In this document: piece after piece, positions 22,691 through 40,747 of the stretch
Layout: each line of letters starts with the position of its first letter
Numbering within the stretch: position 1 is the first letter of the stretch
Notes under the pieces: generated by a model
Seen by the model: the letters and a program-made list of their open reading frames with translations, nothing else
Told to the model about the DNA's origin: nothing
Databases searched by the model: none
Translations under genes and position numbers: made by a program
Assembly (NCBI GenBank): GCA_022781925.1
Contig: JALESO010000031.1
Location: 1-40,860 of the forward strand
Direction of reading: 5' to 3'
From: Lachnospiraceae bacterium
GTDB taxonomy: Bacteria; Bacillota; Clostridia; Lachnospirales; Lachnospiraceae
Length of the DNA: 40,860 nucleotides

Positions 22691-22729
22691 AAAAGTTTGA
22701 AATTTTGTAGTAAGAGAGAGGCAAAGATT

Positions 22730-23773
22730 ATGTTAGCAGTAAAATATCATGGACCGAAAAATCTGGAATATGTCGATATTCCAAAACCGGAAGTCCTTCC
22801 GGGAACAGCACTTGTAAAAATCAAATATTGCGGTATTTGCGGAACCGATGTACATGCTTATTCCATTCCGGGCATTTTTGACTGGGAACTGGTTTTAGGT
22901 CATGAGTCTGTAGGTATCGTAGAAGCAGTAGGCGCAGGTGTGGATAATGTAAAGGTGGGAGACCGCGTGGCAGTCGGACCTCCAGGGGACTGTGGAAAAT
23001 GCTATGCATGCAATACCGGTCATCCGAATGTATGCGCAAACGCATTTCCGGAGACACTCGGAATCGGACCGAATACACAGGGCGCTTATGCTGAGTAAGT
23101 ATTATCCAGACATCCGCAGAATGAACTGTTTGTGATTCCGGACAAAGTAGAATTTGAACAGGCCGTATTATTTGATGTAATCGGTGTCGGATTCCATGCG
23201 GTTCGCCGTTCAGAGTTAAAAGTAGGTGATAATGCGGTGGTAACCGGCTGCGGTTCTGTTGGTTTATCGGCAATCCAGGCAGCAAAACTTGCAGGAGCCA
23301 GAAATGTGATCGCATTTGACTTAAATGAGACAAGACGTGAGATGGCATTACAGGCAGGAGCTGATTATGCATTTGATTCCACTTCAGAAGAAGATGTGGC
23401 AAAAGCAAGAGAAATTTTAAGCCATGAGGGTGGCGCGCATGTATGCTTTGAAGCGGCAGGTCATCCGACATCGACCACTCTGTGTGAGCAGTTGTGCATG
23501 GCAGGTGGTCAGGTGCTTATTATCGGAAGTGATGCGAGACCATATGAACTGGTAAGTGCGGCATTGGGTCCGAGAGAACTTGATTTCAAATTAAGCTTTA
23601 CTTATACAAAAGAAGAGATTTATATGCTGTTCCAGTTAATTGCTTCCGGAAAATGGAAAACCGATGTGTATACTATTGAAAAAGCACCATTGAAAGAGGC
23701 GATTGCAAAAATGGAGGAGTTATCCAGCGGAGAACTGGATGTGGCCCGTGTGCTTCTGATGCCGGAGGCGTAA
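22730..23773 (+). pseudogene. Zinc alcohol dehydrogenase family gene with in-frame TAA at codon 123
   Basis: The frame reads through 347 codons as a medium-chain zinc dehydrogenase (threonine/sorbitol/galactitol dehydrogenase type). It has the catalytic zinc residues Cys37 and the GHE His58, the structural zinc cysteines 88, 91, 94 and 102, and a later GCGSVG Rossmann motif. A TAA at 23096-23098 interrupts it between AYAE and VLSRHP, where relatives usually have Tyr, so one base change from TAT or TAC explains it. Reading frame and domains are otherwise intact. It is either a recent nonsense mutation, a sequencing error, or an uncommon read-through. Its role would be oxidation of a polyol or sugar acid. 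Start ATG 22730. Confidence 0.85.
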
Positions 23774-34699: not shown

Positions 34700-36016
34700 T
34701 CACATAAGTGGATTTTTTAATAAAATAATCACATGAAATTCATGATTTTCTTCGGAATAATAGTAATCCATGTTCCCTTGATAACGATTTACAACTCTTT
34801 CGATAATTTTTAATCCGTGTCCATGAAGTGCCTTGTTTTCTTTTGTGGTCTTTAATTGTTTCCCTGTACCGGAAAAAGGATTATTTCGACAGGAATTTAC
34901 AAGGGTAATAATTGTAAATGCAGTTTGTGCCTGTCGGTGGATTGCCAGTTCAATAAAAGAATCAGGGATATATCTGGCAGCTTCCAGTGCGTTATCCAGT
35001 AAATTGCAGAACAGAGAAGTCATGTCTGTTTCGTTTAAAAATGTACAGGTATCTTTCCGAATGTCAGTACGAAAATCTATATTGTCTTTTCGACATTGCA
35101 TCAGGTATCTGCAAAAAATTGCATTCAGTAATTCATGATTGCAGAGGCGGACAGATGTTTGCAGTTCAGAGGAATTAATCAATGTGTTAATATAGGAATC
35201 TATTTTTTCTGCTTCTCCATTTTGGTTTAAGATGGCAATGGATTGCAGGTGCTTTTTAATATCATGAATGAAACGGTTTTTGTTTTCTGTTTCTGTAATT
35301 AAAGTTTTATAGTATTCAGAAATGTCCTGTTCCCTTTGAAGTAATAGTTGGAGACTGGCATATTCGTTGCTTCTTTTTACGATATAATTATAGGTAATCA
35401 CTACAGATATGTTTAACAAAAGCAACAATACGGTTGCAATTATAAGCATTTTACTTAATTCAGGTGATAATTGTGCTTCACCAGCAAATCGAACATAACA
35501 GCAGATGAGATACATAGATGCTATTGGGGGAATGAGTAAAATCAAAGGCGGCCTTGCTGCGATGTTTTGTTGAGAATATCTTTTGATGATAATTTCTAAT
35601 ATCAGCATGGTTAAAGCATATAAAAATTTGCTTAAAATCGCAGGAATCATCCATATATGAAAAGCCTTTGCCAATGAATTAAATGAGTATGAATATGGAT
35701 ATGGGATTATAAGAATAATAACGCTTTCCCATAAACTCATTATGATTATGTCAATGACAGAGTGAAATGCTGCGATGTACCAGGTAGTATTATATAAAAA
35801 ATATAAAAATATAAAATTTCCAAAACACAGAAAAAAGAAATTAATCATTGGATGCCCAAATTTGAAGATGGCAAAAATAGCAATATAGATGGGAACTATA
35901 AATAAGCAACGTTTCAGAACGGAACATTTAGCTATAAAAATACTGGAGCAATATTGTAAAAATATGATAGCTTCGAAAATAAATATAGAAAAAAAGAAGA
36001 TATAGGTATTAATCAT
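34700..36016 (-). CDS. AgrC-like sensor histidine kinase (GHKL type)
   Basis: This 438-residue protein has six or seven N-terminal membrane segments (about 5-210) that form the peptide sensor, then a coiled coil and a kinase domain. His251 in FIHDIKKHL is the phosphorylated residue. The N-box (CNLLDNALEAA, about 338-348) and a glycine box (HGHGLKII) form the ATP site, as in AgrC of staphylococci and clostridia. It lies 5 nt after the response regulator, so both are in one operon. It would detect the peptide made from the divergent agrD-like gene. The start, ATG 36016, has TGAGGT upstream. Confidence 0.88.
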   Translation of the reverse strand: MINTYIFFFSIFIFEAIIFLQYCSSIFIAKCSVLKRCLFIVPIYIAIFAIFKFGHPMINFFFLCFGNFIFLYFLYNTTWYIAAFHSVIDIIIMSLWESVIILIIPYPYSYSFNSLAKAFHIWMIPAILSKFLYALTMLILEIIIKRYSQQNIAARPPLILLIPPIASMYLICCYVRFAGEAQLSPELSKMLIIATVLLLLLNISVVITYNYIVKRSNEYASLQLLLQREQDISEYYKTLITETENKNRFIHDIKKHLQSIAILNQNGEAEKIDSYINTLINSSELQTSVRLCNHELLNAIFCRYLMQCRKDNIDFRTDIRKDTCTFLNETDMTSLFCNLLDNALEAARYIPDSFIELAIHRQAQTAFTIITLVNSCRNNPFSGTGKQLKTTKENKALHGHGLKIIERVVNRYQGNMDYYYSEENHEFHVIILLKNPLM

Positions 36017-36021
36017 GTATA

Positions 36022-36729
36022 TTACCTCAGACTTTCTAAATATAGTAAATAAGCAGATTTGAATTCAGTATATTTCCTTCTTGTGAGATAAGCGGTATAT
36101 TTCCGATGAAAAAGGTAAATCAGAGAATGATCAAAATCTGATACATGCATAAAATTTACAATAAAACTGCGATGTGGTTGAAAAAAACTGCCGGAAGGTA
36201 GCTTTTCTTTCCATTGGGCAATTGTGTGGATGGATTCATAATCCTGTGTAACTGTGTGAACAATAGTACGTCGATTGCAGGCTTCCAGATAGATAATATC
36301 AGAGACAGACACAGTATGAACGGAATGCTTTGATTCGATTGGAACATTACAATTTTCTGTACTGTATACACGCAGAGTATCTTTCATATTTTGGAATAAT
36401 CGATGTTTTTCCAGCGGTTTTGATAAATAGCGAAACACATGAAAGCGCATTGCTTCATCCAGATACTCAGCATAAGAAGTAACGATAAAAATTATGATTT
36501 TTGAATTTTGCTTCTTTAATTCCTGACCAGTGGAGATTCCGGAAAGACCTGGCATCTCAATATCAAGAAAAACAATATCTTTTTTATCTGTATTTGCCAG
36601 CAATGCTTCACCACTGTTAAAAGTCAGAAAATTTGGGCAAGTCAGGTTGTTACGTTTAAAAAATGTCTTTAAGTAAGTTAAAAGTTGTTCTGTAAATAAA
36701 ATATCATCATCACAAATTGCAATTACCAT
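36022..36729 (-). CDS. AgrA-like LytTR response regulator
   Basis: This 235-residue protein has an N-terminal receiver with the acidic pocket Asp7-Asp9 and the phosphorylated Asp56 in FLDIEMPG, then a C-terminal LytTR DNA-binding domain (about 135-235, with the FFQPHRSFIVN segment). LytTR proteins bind pairs of direct repeats before target promoters. It would act on the agrDB and downstream promoters (37385 and 38326), although no clear repeat was identified. GGGAGG precedes ATG 36729. Confidence 0.9.
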   Translation of the reverse strand: MVIAICDDDILFTEQLLTYLKTFFKRNNLTCPNFLTFNSGEALLANTDKKDIVFLDIEMPGLSGISTGQELKKQNSKIIIFIVTSYAEYLDEAMRFHVFRYLSKPLEKHRLFQNMKDTLRVYSTENCNVPIESKHSVHTVSVSDIIYLEACNRRTIVHTVTQDYESIHTIAQWKEKLPSGSFFQPHRSFIVNFMHVSDFDHSLIYLFHRKYTAYLTRRKYTEFKSAYLLYLESLR

Positions 36730-36837: not shown

Positions 36838-37188
36838 TTAAGAAAAATGCTGTGTATTCCAATTTTTATGATTTTTTTGAACATACAATTTGATAATATC
36901 ATTAATAATATTGAGATCTTCACATGAACACAAGCTGAGATTATCTAAAATATTTTGATTGATATTATTTGCATGCATATTGCCGAGTAATAAATAATCA
37001 GGTGTGACAGACAGTTCTTCGCAAATACGAATAAATACGTGAATACTTGGATTCCCAACACCGCGTTCAATAGATGACATATGATTATTGGAAACACCGA
37101 TTAATTCTGCCAGTTCTGATTGTCTGATTCGTAATTCTTTTCTTCGGGATCTGATTCTGCGTCCCATTTCAACAAGTTGTGTATTCAA
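36838..37188 (-). CDS. XRE-family helix-turn-helix regulator
   Basis: This 116-residue protein has an N-terminal Cro/C1-type helix-turn-helix (about 10-65; RQSELAELIGVSNNHMSSIERG is the core), followed by a C-terminal helical tail of unknown role. The start is TTG at 37186-37188, preceded by AAAGGAT at a good distance. It lies upstream of agrA on the same strand, 108 nt away, and divergent from agrDB. It may repress the locus or itself: a palindrome at 37209-37231 lies just upstream of its start. Confidence 0.85.
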   Translation of the reverse strand: MNTQLVEMGRRIRSRRKELRIRQSELAELIGVSNNHMSSIERGVGNPSIHVFIRICEELSVTPDYLLLGNMHANNINQNILDNLSLCSCEDLNIINDIIKLYVQKNHKNWNTQHFS

Positions 37189-37413: not shown

Positions 37414-37460
37414 AAGCGTGTATAACAATCAATGAAATATTACGAGAGGAGAAAAAATAG

Positions 37461-37485
37461 CAGCTCAGAATAACAATCTGAGCTG
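37461..37485 (+). promoter_or_regulatory. Hairpin between ribosome binding site and agrD-like start
   Basis: CAGCTCAGA (37461-37469) pairs perfectly with TCTGAGCTG (37477-37485). A good GAGAGGAG (37444-37451) lies before it and the start codons 37488 and 37497 lie after it, so folding may bring site and start together or block initiation. Confidence 0.7.
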
Positions 37486-37496
37486 TTATGGGAAAA

Positions 37497-37649
37497 ATGA
37501 GCACAAAGAAAAAAAGTAAAAAAATGAACCAAAGAATAAGAAATGTATTAAATGCAGTACTATATGTGGAAGCAAATTCAACATCATCAACATTTTTGTA
37601 TGAAGCAAAAATACCAAAAAATCTTTCTGAATATCGGAAAAAGAGATGA
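37497..37649 (+). CDS. AgrD-like cyclic autoinducer prepeptide, Ser ring residue
   Basis: This 50-codon gene is absent from longer-ORF lists but has the AgrD plan: a basic amphipathic leader (1-24), a central core STSSTFLY (28-35), and an acidic-Pro tail (EAKIPKNLSE, 36-45) like the tail that AgrB removes. Aligned to staphylococcal AgrD, Ser31 takes the place of the ring Cys and Tyr35 is the last ring residue, predicting a five-residue lactone, S-T-F-L-Y. The stop overlaps the agrB start (ATGA), so the two are coupled. ATG 37488 is an alternative start. The call depends on context and pattern; peptide production is inferred. Confidence 0.75.
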   Translation: MSTKKKSKKMNQRIRNVLNAVLYVEANSTSSTFLYEAKIPKNLSEYRKKR

Positions 37650-38243
37650 TTTTCAGATGTTCAGGAAAAATAGCACGACATTTATGTTTGTCAGAAATTA
37701 TTTCCGAAGATGAGTATGAGTTATATCAATACGCAGTTTTTTCGATTATGAGTACAATTATCCCATTGATCATGGTTATGACAATCGGTGGAATACTTGG
37801 TCTGATGAAAAATGGAATAGTTATGATTATACCGTTTCTGACGATAAGAAAATTTTGTGGTGGATTCCATGCAAAACGTGAATGGATCTGCATATTGTTA
37901 TCGGTTATTGTTGTTACCGTTTGTATTATATTTGACAACCTACTGTAAGGCTGATATATGGTTGAATGGCGGAGTGATTGGGTCTGTGTTAACGATATCC
38001 GTGTTTAGTCCGGTAGTATCTGTAAACAGGGATATTCCCAAACACGAAAGAGTGATATGCAGAAAAATTGCAATTATTTTAACGGTGACATCTGCAGGCA
38101 ATTATTTTGTATTGAGATTTTGGGGCTATAGTCAGTTTGCTGTATGTATTGCTATTGGAATTATACTGACGGCTGTTTTACAGGATCTTGCATGGATACA
38201 GCAAAAATTAATACTTAGAGATCAGGCGATTATCGAAAGATAG
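37646..38243 (+). pseudogene. AgrB-like peptide-processing protease, split by a frameshift
   Basis: AgrB is a membrane cysteine protease that cleaves and cyclises AgrD. The first part (100 residues) has the catalytic pair His75 (GGFHAK) and Cys82 (EWIC), seven apart as in AgrB, but ends at TAA 37946-37948. The remaining AgrB sequence (KADIWLNGG onward, to 38243) continues in the +1 frame. Joined, the two parts give about 198 residues, the normal AgrB length. The break lies within roughly 37925-37950, near CTGTAAGG. It could be a real mutation, a sequencing error or a programmed +1 shift; no slippery site with a stimulator is evident. Confidence 0.85.
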
Positions 38244-38407: not shown

Positions 38408-38851
38408 ATGAAAAAACCAGTTGCTATTTTGGCAAGTCTTGCATTAACGGGAAGCATTTTAATTGGAGGTACAGTTCCTGCATTGGCTGGAAATTGTTCT
38501 TATCAATTTTATGATGTAAGTGGGTTGTCAAAAGAAAGTTATGCGATTTCTTGGTATGACAGAAATACAAAAGCGGTTACAGGTAGAGACTGGGTTGTAA
38601 AAGCAACTACAATTACATTGCCTGATAGTACCACACCGTCATATGGAATCGCACATGTGTTATATAATGTAAAGACAGAAGCCATTAATACAAAGAATGC
38701 GTGGTTAAAAGCTCCGGGAAGAAAAGTGGGACAGTGGTTATCTACATATGGAGTGAAAGGTGAACTGTATGGGATTGGCGCAAGATTAGATACGAACTAC
38801 AAGAACGGAAGAGGAACAACGGTAGGCGTATTTAATTCGGATGCTTACTAA
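38408..38851 (+). CDS. Secreted small protein, possibly DUF2712-like
   Basis: This 147-residue protein has a clear signal peptide (basic start, hydrophobic core, ALA|GN cleavage near residue 27), and a mature part of about 120 residues with Tyr, Thr, Gly and aromatic residues and a single Cys. The end, GVFNSDAY, resembles the tail motif of DUF2712 proteins, which lie beside bacteriocin-like operons in Bacillota; the match is weak. AAAGGAGAAC precedes ATG 38408. It has its own promoter directly after the Agr genes, so it may be an Agr output. A bacteriocin, toxin or wall-associated protein are all possible. Confidence 0.7.
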   Translation: MKKPVAILASLALTGSILIGGTVPALAGNCSYQFYDVSGLSKESYAISWYDRNTKAVTGRDWVVKATTITLPDSTTPSYGIAHVLYNVKTEAINTKNAWLKAPGRKVGQWLSTYGVKGELYGIGARLDTNYKNGRGTTVGVFNSDAY

Positions 38852-38881
38852 GAAGATAGTATAGTTAACGACTAAATTAGT

Positions 38882-38938
38882 GATTAGCTGTTTTGCCAAG
38901 GATAGGTTCAAAATCTTATTGAAGCAAAACAGCTAATC
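38882..38938 (+). terminator. Long-stem hairpin between secreted protein and lipoprotein genes
   Basis: GATTAGCTGTTTTGC (38882-38896) pairs perfectly with GCAAAACAGCTAATC (38924-38938), followed by GTTTTAATG. It may act as a partial terminator that lets more of the first gene be made. Confidence 0.65.
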
Positions 38939-38966
38939 GTTTTAATGAAAGGTATATTACAAAGAA

Positions 38967-40007
38967 ATGAGAAAGCAAACGGTAATTTTTATACAGGCAA
39001 TGATGGTTATGGCAATTGTTTCCGGGTGTAGAAGTAATCCTACGGCTATGGTAACGAATGACAATGGTGTCAAGCAGGAAGAGCAGGAAATAATAACAGA
39101 TGCCAGTAGTGAGAATGCATTAGAAGAAGTTCCGGAACGTTTGATATGCAGTTATGAATCTTTGGACGGAATCAAGAACCTAGATATTCCGATTGAGCGT
39201 ACGGAGCAGAAATTATTATGTGGGAAAATACAGGGGAAAAAAATATCTCCGGAAATTATTTGCAATGTATTGGAACCAGAGGGGCTGTGGAGTCAGGATA
39301 AAGAACTTGCACAGGAAACGAAAGCAGATGATGCGTATCAGACCGAAATTACGACAGCGTTGGGACAGAATATTTCAAGACAGTTATTTGTATTTGATGA
39401 AGGAACATATTTTTACTCGAATACAATCGGGGATGAAACGATGTTTTCTGTGGATTCGGATTTGCTCAGCGAAGAAATGTGGACAGAAGAAGAGCAAAAG
39501 TTTGTACAAAGCAGAACTGATGAGGCAGAAGAAATTTTTAAAAATTTTGGGGTCGATTATCGTGTGACTCAAACCCAGTTATATAAGGATGGGAACAATT
39601 ATTTTGTTACTGTGGGTTTAAGTGAATATATGGATGGAGTACCAATTTGTGATTTTAATGGTATCAGTGCAGGAAGTGATATGTTACTGGCAAATGGTTT
39701 GATTACGTTATCAGAAGATCATATATCCGAATTCCGTATTTGTGGAACCTGCGAGGTAATGAGTGATGCCGAACAGTGTAAGCTGCTCAGCTGGCAGCAG
39801 ATTGAAAACTGTTTTCTGGATGAGATAAAAGGCGCAGATTGGGGAAATTATGATATCACAGCGGTGAAATTAGAATATCTGGTAAAAAACGATCTGACGT
39901 TTGCGCCGGTGTGGAGTTTTTATGGTGAAATTGCGGAAAATATAGAAAAGCCATTATTGTGTTTGAATACGTCCAGTGGAAAGGTGGAATTTCAATGGGG
40001 AATGTAA
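38967..40007 (+). CDS. Uncharacterised lipoprotein
   Basis: This 346-residue protein has a lipoprotein signal with VSGC (Cys21), an acidic linker (about 25-55), and a large outer domain with no recognised family. Segments such as DEGTYFYSNTIGD and the late VKLEYLVKNDLTFAPVWSFYG (about 312-332) resemble regulatory lipoproteins near ABC exporters, but only loosely. ATG 38967 has GAAAGG upstream. It overlaps the following membrane protein gene by 13 nt, so both are translated together and probably act together. Function is unknown. Confidence 0.75.
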   Translation: MRKQTVIFIQAMMVMAIVSGCRSNPTAMVTNDNGVKQEEQEIITDASSENALEEVPERLICSYESLDGIKNLDIPIERTEQKLLCGKIQGKKISPEIICNVLEPEGLWSQDKELAQETKADDAYQTEITTALGQNISRQLFVFDEGTYFYSNTIGDETMFSVDSDLLSEEMWTEEEQKFVQSRTDEAEEIFKNFGVDYRVTQTQLYKDGNNYFVTVGLSEYMDGVPICDFNGISAGSDMLLANGLITLSEDHISEFRICGTCEVMSDAEQCKLLSWQQIENCFLDEIKGADWGNYDITAVKLEYLVKNDLTFAPVWSFYGEIAENIEKPLLCLNTSSGKVEFQWGM

Positions 40008-40747
40008 AACAAAATTTTAAACGTTCCTGTTTGAATCTGGGAATGGTGATAGCAATCGTGGTACCGTTTGGTATTTTTTTCGTCTCATTATACGATGGAG
40101 GGATTTTAGGCAGAAATATGGATATGGATTTATTGTCTGCGTATGCAACACCGATGGCTTTATCAAATTATGTTCAGTTTGCATGTCTTTTCCCTATTTT
40201 GCCATTTGCATTTTCGTTTTGCGAAGATAAAAACAGTGGTTATTTGCAATATATCCGTTTGCGATTGAGTGAAAAAAGTTATATTCGGGAAAAAATGTTT
40301 TGGACGGGAGTGTCTGGCGGTATTGCGGCAGCAATTCCAAGTATGATTCTTTTTCTGGTTTTGATCTGCTGTTACCATCCGACCAGCAATATGCCGGATA
40401 GTATGTATTATCCTTCACATCTGCAGGGGATGATATGGGAAAAATACATAGGTGTCTGGGGTGGAATATTGATTTTACTGCTGAAATTAATATTAGTATT
40501 TTTGTTTGGTATATTTTGTTCAGAAGCAGCTTTGCTGATTTCTGTAATCTGTGCAAACCGTTATGTTGTATTCGTTGGAATATTGACATTTTATCTGGTC
40601 AACTGGATTTTGACACCGGGAAAATACAGTTTGTTTGTTGAGCTGTTTCTGCTACGGGGAGATTTTTTTGATACGGTTCCAATCTGGTGTCCGTATCTTA
40701 TTCAGATGATATACATAAGCCTGAATTATTCACGGAATAGTATCTGA
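39995..40747 (+). CDS. ABC-2-like multi-pass membrane protein
   Basis: This 250-residue protein has about five or six hydrophobic helices and resembles the permease subunits of ABC-2-type exporters, although no ATPase gene lies in the window. AAAGGTGGA (39980-39988) sets ATG 39995 as the start. It overlaps the lipoprotein gene. The protein ends in a polar tail (SLNYSRNSI) right where possible insertion-element DNA begins, so it may be cut short. It could export or give immunity to the secreted protein upstream. Confidence 0.6.
   Translation: MGNVKQNFKRSCLNLGMVIAIVVPFGIFFVSLYDGGILGRNMDMDLLSAYATPMALSNYVQFACLFPILPFAFSFCEDKNSGYLQYIRLRLSEKSYIREKMFWTGVSGGIAAAIPSMILFLVLICCYHPTSNMPDSMYYPSHLQGMIWEKYIGVWGGILILLLKLILVFLFGIFCSEAALLISVICANRYVVFVGILTFYLVNWILTPGKYSLFVELFLLRGDFFDTVPIWCPYLIQMIYISLNYSRNSI

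Follow-up and report, generated by a model that had tools for sequence, protein, structure and literature searches.

A probable serine-type agrD gene beside an agrB in two reading frames in a Lachnospiraceae contig

AIPs whose ring is closed through Ser are presented as exceptions in a 2025 primer (PMC12312760, section 6). The AIP of S. pseudintermedius and S. intermedius is RIPT[STGFF], with Ser closing the ring (PMC5007282, PMC12312760, PMC3673130), and the GBAP peptide of E. faecalis, made from FsrD and processed by FsrB, is also a Ser lactone (PMC3673130, PMC12312760). For C. difficile agr2 (agrB2D2C2A2), Table 1 of PMC12312760 gives the AIP as NSA[SSWVA], the table itself carrying no basis for the ring assignment. 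A Cys-free AgrD with the core ANESSSLVF is encoded on a plasmid of [Eubacterium] eligens ATCC 27750 (WP_012740347.1). The NCBIfam model TIGR04223 (quorum_AgrD), named for the AgrD family cyclic lactone autoinducer peptide, has been used in a genome-mining rule (PMC13289728), and a literature search over titles and abstract openings, in which subscription journals were thinly covered, returned no paper on a Ser-type AgrD of Lachnospiraceae.

In the window, which denotes the whole stretch of 40,860 nucleotides analysed here, an agrD-like open reading frame (ORF) sits between XRE, LytTR and GHKL regulator genes and agrB. The features of the locus are as follows.

34700..36016, minus strand: AgrC-like GHKL sensor kinase (Pfam HATPase_c_5)
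36022..36729, minus strand: AgrA-like LytTR response regulator (Pfam LytTR and Response_reg)
36838..37188, minus strand: XRE-type regulator, divergent from agrD (Pfam HTH_3)
37457..37489, plus strand: hairpin with 13-nt arms, 92% complementary, and a 7-nt loop
37488..37649 (stop included), plus strand: agrD-like ORF of 53 aa, of which 50 codons remain if the internal ATG 37497 is the start; TIGR04223 match
37646..37948, plus strand: first piece of agrB, 100 aa (Pfam AgrB, 80.3 bits, profile positions 3-91)
37857..38243, plus strand: second piece of agrB, 128 aa, in a different frame (Pfam AgrB, 36.8 bits, profile positions 82-181)
38408..38851, plus strand: secreted protein, 147 aa
38967..40007, plus strand: lipoprotein-like protein, 346 aa
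39959..40747, plus strand: permease-like membrane protein, 262 aa

The peptide encoded by the ORF begins with a basic leader, followed by the core ANSTSSTFL-Y and the charged tail EAKIPKNLSEYRKKR, core and tail together reading ANSTSSTFL-YEAKIPKNL, and it contains no Cys. It scored 24.7 bits in the 53-aa form and 24.8 bits in the 50-aa form against TIGR04223, for which the curated cut-off is 19 bits, and the Pfam search of the ORF gave no match. Together with the 15 homologues of equal leader, core and tail plan that could be aligned, this score bears out the 50-codon AgrD-like gene proposed by an earlier reading of the letters alone (the sequence-only reading). Of the span 37461..37649 that had been given for it, the ORF stands and the start does not, the 27 extra bases holding most of the hairpin; the placement directly before agrB was right, as agrB starts at 37646, overlapping the stop of agrD. 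The expectation that standard annotation would likely miss such a gene is not supported by the E. eligens copy, which bears the name "AgrD family cyclic lactone autoinducer peptide" in its record. The ORF is short, its N-terminus is lysine-rich and its start context is weak, as might be seen in a chance reading frame that contains no gene, but this explanation was ruled out as extremely improbable by the profile match above the cut-off and by the conservation in the aligned relatives, with homologues that have the same neighbours. Judged by its sequence, 37488..37649 is a genuine agrD gene of a known family, and most likely encodes an ordinary Ser-type AgrD.

In comparison to the described systems, the E. 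eligens AgrD is Cys-free like that of the window, to which it is 27% identical, and its gene likewise stands directly before agrB with an ATP-binding (kinase-like) gene and a LytTR gene adjoining, but its AgrB lies in one frame and an SD directly precedes its ATG. C. difficile Agr2 shares the NSxSS core, the Ser ring and the linked two-component genes (PMC12312760, Table 1), although it belongs to a different organism and the likeness is drawn from the peptide and the linked genes. The AgrD of S. pseudintermedius and S. intermedius yields a five-residue Ser lactone, as is predicted for the window, yet it comes from a staphylococcus with the agrBDCA order and has a ring beginning S-T without an adjacent second Ser, while E. 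faecalis differs by the nine-residue ring of GBAP (PMC12312760) and by fsrD lying within fsrB (PMC3673130). The staphylococcal example of S. intermedius had been cited correctly, but closer precedents are found in C. difficile Agr2 and in E. eligens.

Relatives of the peptide were collected by several searches. Within the genus, this AgrD was found in its own genome only (1 of the 20 genomes searched), the other five genomes with matches giving E 0.19 or worse, and the TIGR04223 cut-off was passed in 3 of the 20. In the family, matches to the peptide with E no higher than 0.05 were present in 15 of 397 genomes, and a part of them are due to chance. A model of eleven sequences (A1) scored at least 62 bits in 10 genomes and 36.7 bits for the next match; the ten strong scores arise by construction because those matches are ten of its eleven rows, and the gap thus means that this genome draw contains no additional members scoring in between. 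Of 138 genomes in the genus of G041, 7 matched, from which L070 (already a row), L219, L220, L221 and L224 were kept, while two were left out of the subfamily: L223, which is Cys-type, and L222, which has Thr in the Ser30 column, Ser in the Ser31 column and an AgrB outside the clade described below. The resulting alignment of 16 sequences, which includes L040 and the E. eligens plasmid AgrD, is invariant at L18, A26, P40 and L43, and each of the 16 matches TIGR04223 with E no greater than 1. The 16-row model yielded no new strong member among 391 genomes of the class, its two strong matches there being present by construction because both are its own rows. AgrB was located in 109 of 157 loci, and a tree of these 109 rows by a quick method placed 14 subfamily AgrBs, including the first piece of the window, in one clade (SH-aLRT 99), within which Cys, Ser and Thr types are intermingled and outside which L222 falls. 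The alignment and the AgrB tree show that core and tail are conserved in relatives that keep agrB, a point on which the sequence-only reading had staked its claim.

Some five residues ahead of its charged tail, where AgrDs have a Cys or Ser as nucleophile, the window AgrD has Ser30 and Ser31 (numbered in the 50-aa form; Ser30 is S33 of the 53-aa form). Since the peptide is without Cys, the lactone predicted earlier is the right prediction, and the ring is probably closed by Ser; the particular choice of Ser31, giving S-T-F-L-Y, is in part supported and in part opposed. A ring through Ser30 would be S-S-T-F-L with the tail YEAKIPKNL, a refinement of the preferred explanation, and several results point to it. 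In the TIGR04223 match, agrD residues 19-47 lie on profile positions 9-37, with no gap inferred because the aligned lengths are equal on both sides, and Ser30 falls in the Cys column; the Cys-type L041 covers positions 2-38 with its Cys at 23 (hand count, no gaps assumed). Cys-type AgrDs, L041 among them, have their Cys five residues ahead of the residue that opens the tail ([YH][QE]P), which is the spacing found for Ser30. The published bracket of C. difficile agr2, NSA[SSWVA], which has the same SS pair, also corresponds to Ser30 (PMC12312760, Table 1), and the Ser30 column of the alignment is Ser in 14 of 16. On the other hand, this column has Ala in L093 and Gly in L224, whereas the Ser31 column holds Cys in 8, Ser in 7 and Thr in 1, that is, C/S/T in 16/16 (17/17 when L222 is added), with Cys opposite Ser31 in 8 of the 15 relatives. 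In comparison, of the 132 distinct AgrDs that do not belong to the subfamily, among the matches listed, 18 have C/S/T at the equivalent position, and the chance of C/S/T at this column in 15 of 15 was about 1e-13, computed regardless of relatedness. Where these other AgrDs are Ser-type (18 sequences, among the matches listed), the Ser31-equivalent position is Cys in 3 and is not C/S/T in 15. We thus weigh the two registers about evenly on these comparisons, with conservation in the subfamily favouring Ser31, and the profile, the tail spacing and C. difficile agr2 favouring Ser30; the ring would be a lactone under either. The cyclic core masses, computed by hand from residue masses, are 611.3 Da for STFLY and 535.3 Da for SSTFL.

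The alternation at the Ser31 column leads to a tentative proposal, which we hold at somewhat less than even probability, that in this subfamily the nucleophile may have moved one residue tailward and may switch among Cys, Ser and Thr from one close relative to another (8, 7 and 1 of 16), and that one enzyme lineage may thereby produce both thiolactones and lactones, perhaps including a Thr-lactone, as signals, the cut site being shifted or the ring being smaller. At least 2 changes of the Cys label are forced on the AgrB tree within the subfamily. Outside it, the 15 Ser-type rows were clustered on the tree (6 changes in comparison to a shuffled mean of 14.3), and several origins of Ser are not demonstrated because the well-supported branches force only one change.

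The frequency of Ser outside the subfamily was taken from 150 AgrD peptides among the matches listed, of which 10 belong to the subfamily, L126 (unparsed) and L095 (misparsed), both Cys-type by eye, were left out, and the remaining 138 reduce to 132 distinct ones. At the usual ring position, these 132 distinct cores, among the matches listed, have Cys in 114 and Ser in 18, which does not agree with the earlier description of Ser-based rings as rare, although the frequency may be off because the peptides were recruited with TIGR04223. Besides its two own rows, the 16-row model gave four weaker matches among the 391 genomes of the class, of which L241 is Cys-type and L240, L242 and L243 are Ser-type at the usual position, the latter three belonging to two other families of the class. 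Two side observations came from the same material: genome G073 has thirteen AgrD matches, among the matches listed, and the pairs L010/L116 and L043/L044 have identical AgrB and AgrD core across different genera, which suggests recent transfer.

The surroundings of the gene are those of an agr locus, with an AgrC-like GHKL kinase and an AgrA-like LytTR regulator nearby, as in agrBDCA, and with a linked agrB, which Pfam AgrB recognises in both pieces though they lie in two frames. The flank comparison used the ten subfamily loci with fetched flanks (L040 and L208-L216). Homologues were found for the LytTR regulator in 10 of 10, for the XRE regulator in 8 of 10 and for the kinase in 9 of 10, the tenth, L212, giving only a 99-aa piece cut by the stretch end (E 0.011). 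The three genes on the other side are shared less widely. L216 has homologues of the secreted protein (E 5e-12), the lipoprotein-like protein (20% identity, E 8e-10) and the permease; L218, whose agrBD does not belong to the subfamily, has a permease homologue and a weak match to the secreted protein (E 0.009); in L040 a stretch of 58 residues matches the permease (E 4e-6). The three proteins gave no match at E below 0.1 in the other eight subfamily flanks. In L216, L218 and L040 an ABC ATPase follows, with a lantibiotic-protection type as its best model, under that model's cut-off, and in the window the contig end at 40860 precedes any ABC ATPase. Sets of secreted protein, lipoprotein and permease are thus seen beside agrBD of different lineages (window 38408-40747, L216 3975-8514, L218 4756-9287 and L040 5619-9883). 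The secreted part differs among these agrBD loci, the protein of L040 matching DUF2712 and L217, outside the subfamily, having lactococcin-972 peptides at the same place beside agrB. The structure model of the 147-aa secreted protein was useless (mean pLDDT 33.6). Since such cassettes stand beside agrBD loci, control by agr of a secreted protein with its transporter is plausible. Carriage by phage was rejected, as none of 31 stretches from a viral-contig pattern scan with the AgrD alignment was a relative; four unannotated phage-labelled faecal scaffolds carry distant AgrBs (25-32% identity), and the AgrDs recognised on two of them are of the Cys type.

Two features of the locus bear on whether it works in this strain. 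The first is agrB, whose first piece contains GGFH-x6-C, which we take to be the His/Cys pair of AgrB peptidases, but whose sequence is divided between two frames. Searched with Pfam AgrB, the full 2.93 Mb assembly, which is 91% complete, gave no AgrB place besides these two, so that the intact AgrB peptidase needed for a complete agrBDCA was not found in it. The second is the hairpin (arms 37457-37469 and 37477-37489; 65-nt fold -19.1 kcal/mol), which separates the SD-like GAGAGGAG from the agrD start codons and whose stem is overlapped by one candidate ATG. The comparison used nine relatives and E. eligens, with L089, L219 and L220 left out as their start choice is doubtful. A good SD stands few bases ahead of the ATG in L071, L049, L087, L090, L092, L070, L072, L221 and L040, and in E. 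eligens as well, and these ten relatives therefore have no room for the hairpin. As a multi-copy repeat the hairpin was rejected, its own genome holding one perfect copy and a next best one with 2 mismatches.

These observations could also be explained by decay of the locus, with agrD as a leftover, because agrB is broken and the hairpin hampers agrD translation, and with a strain that may only sense the peptides of others through its intact kinase and regulator. The agrB in two frames with no second copy found in the assembly, the SD directly before the agrD start in ten relatives, and the presence of the gene in 1 of 20 genus genomes agree with decay, which we nevertheless consider rather unlikely. 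The agrD, kinase, regulator and cassette genes are all open, and another reading frame of the same contig, 22697-23773, presumably dehydrogenase-like, is also interrupted, by one in-frame stop at 23096-23098, making it with agrB the second broken gene on the contig. The break in agrB may for this reason be an assembly error, sequence errors being equally likely as decay. The function of the locus in this strain is doubtful.

The explanation we prefer, and consider fairly probable as a whole, is that agrD encodes a Ser-type precursor with leader helix, core and charged tail which, if expressed, would be cut at the tail by the AgrB peptidase, which would also cyclise the core, by way of a Ser side chain, to a five-residue lactone, and that a second protease would take off the leader. 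The released peptide would be sensed by the adjoining AgrC-like GHKL kinase and AgrA-like LytTR regulator as its presumed receptor pair, which may control the agr genes as well as the adjoining secreted-protein, lipoprotein and permease genes as targets. The annotated Cys-free relative in E. eligens and the Ser-closed AIPs in print speak for this explanation, while the two-frame agrB, the hairpin before the start and the restriction of agrD to 1 of 20 genus genomes speak against it.

The interesting part is the small AgrB/AgrD subfamily, in which the presumed nucleophile alternates among Cys, Ser and Thr. It forms a natural set for studying what determines the nucleophile and the cut site used by AgrB, and for asking how the instability of lactones is tolerated; of a Listeria lactone analogue, 36% had been hydrolysed after 22 h and 48% had rearranged (PMC11297923). 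With Ser at the usual position in 18 of the 132 distinct AgrDs, among the matches listed, predicted lactones may belong to the regular signalling repertoire of the sampled family.
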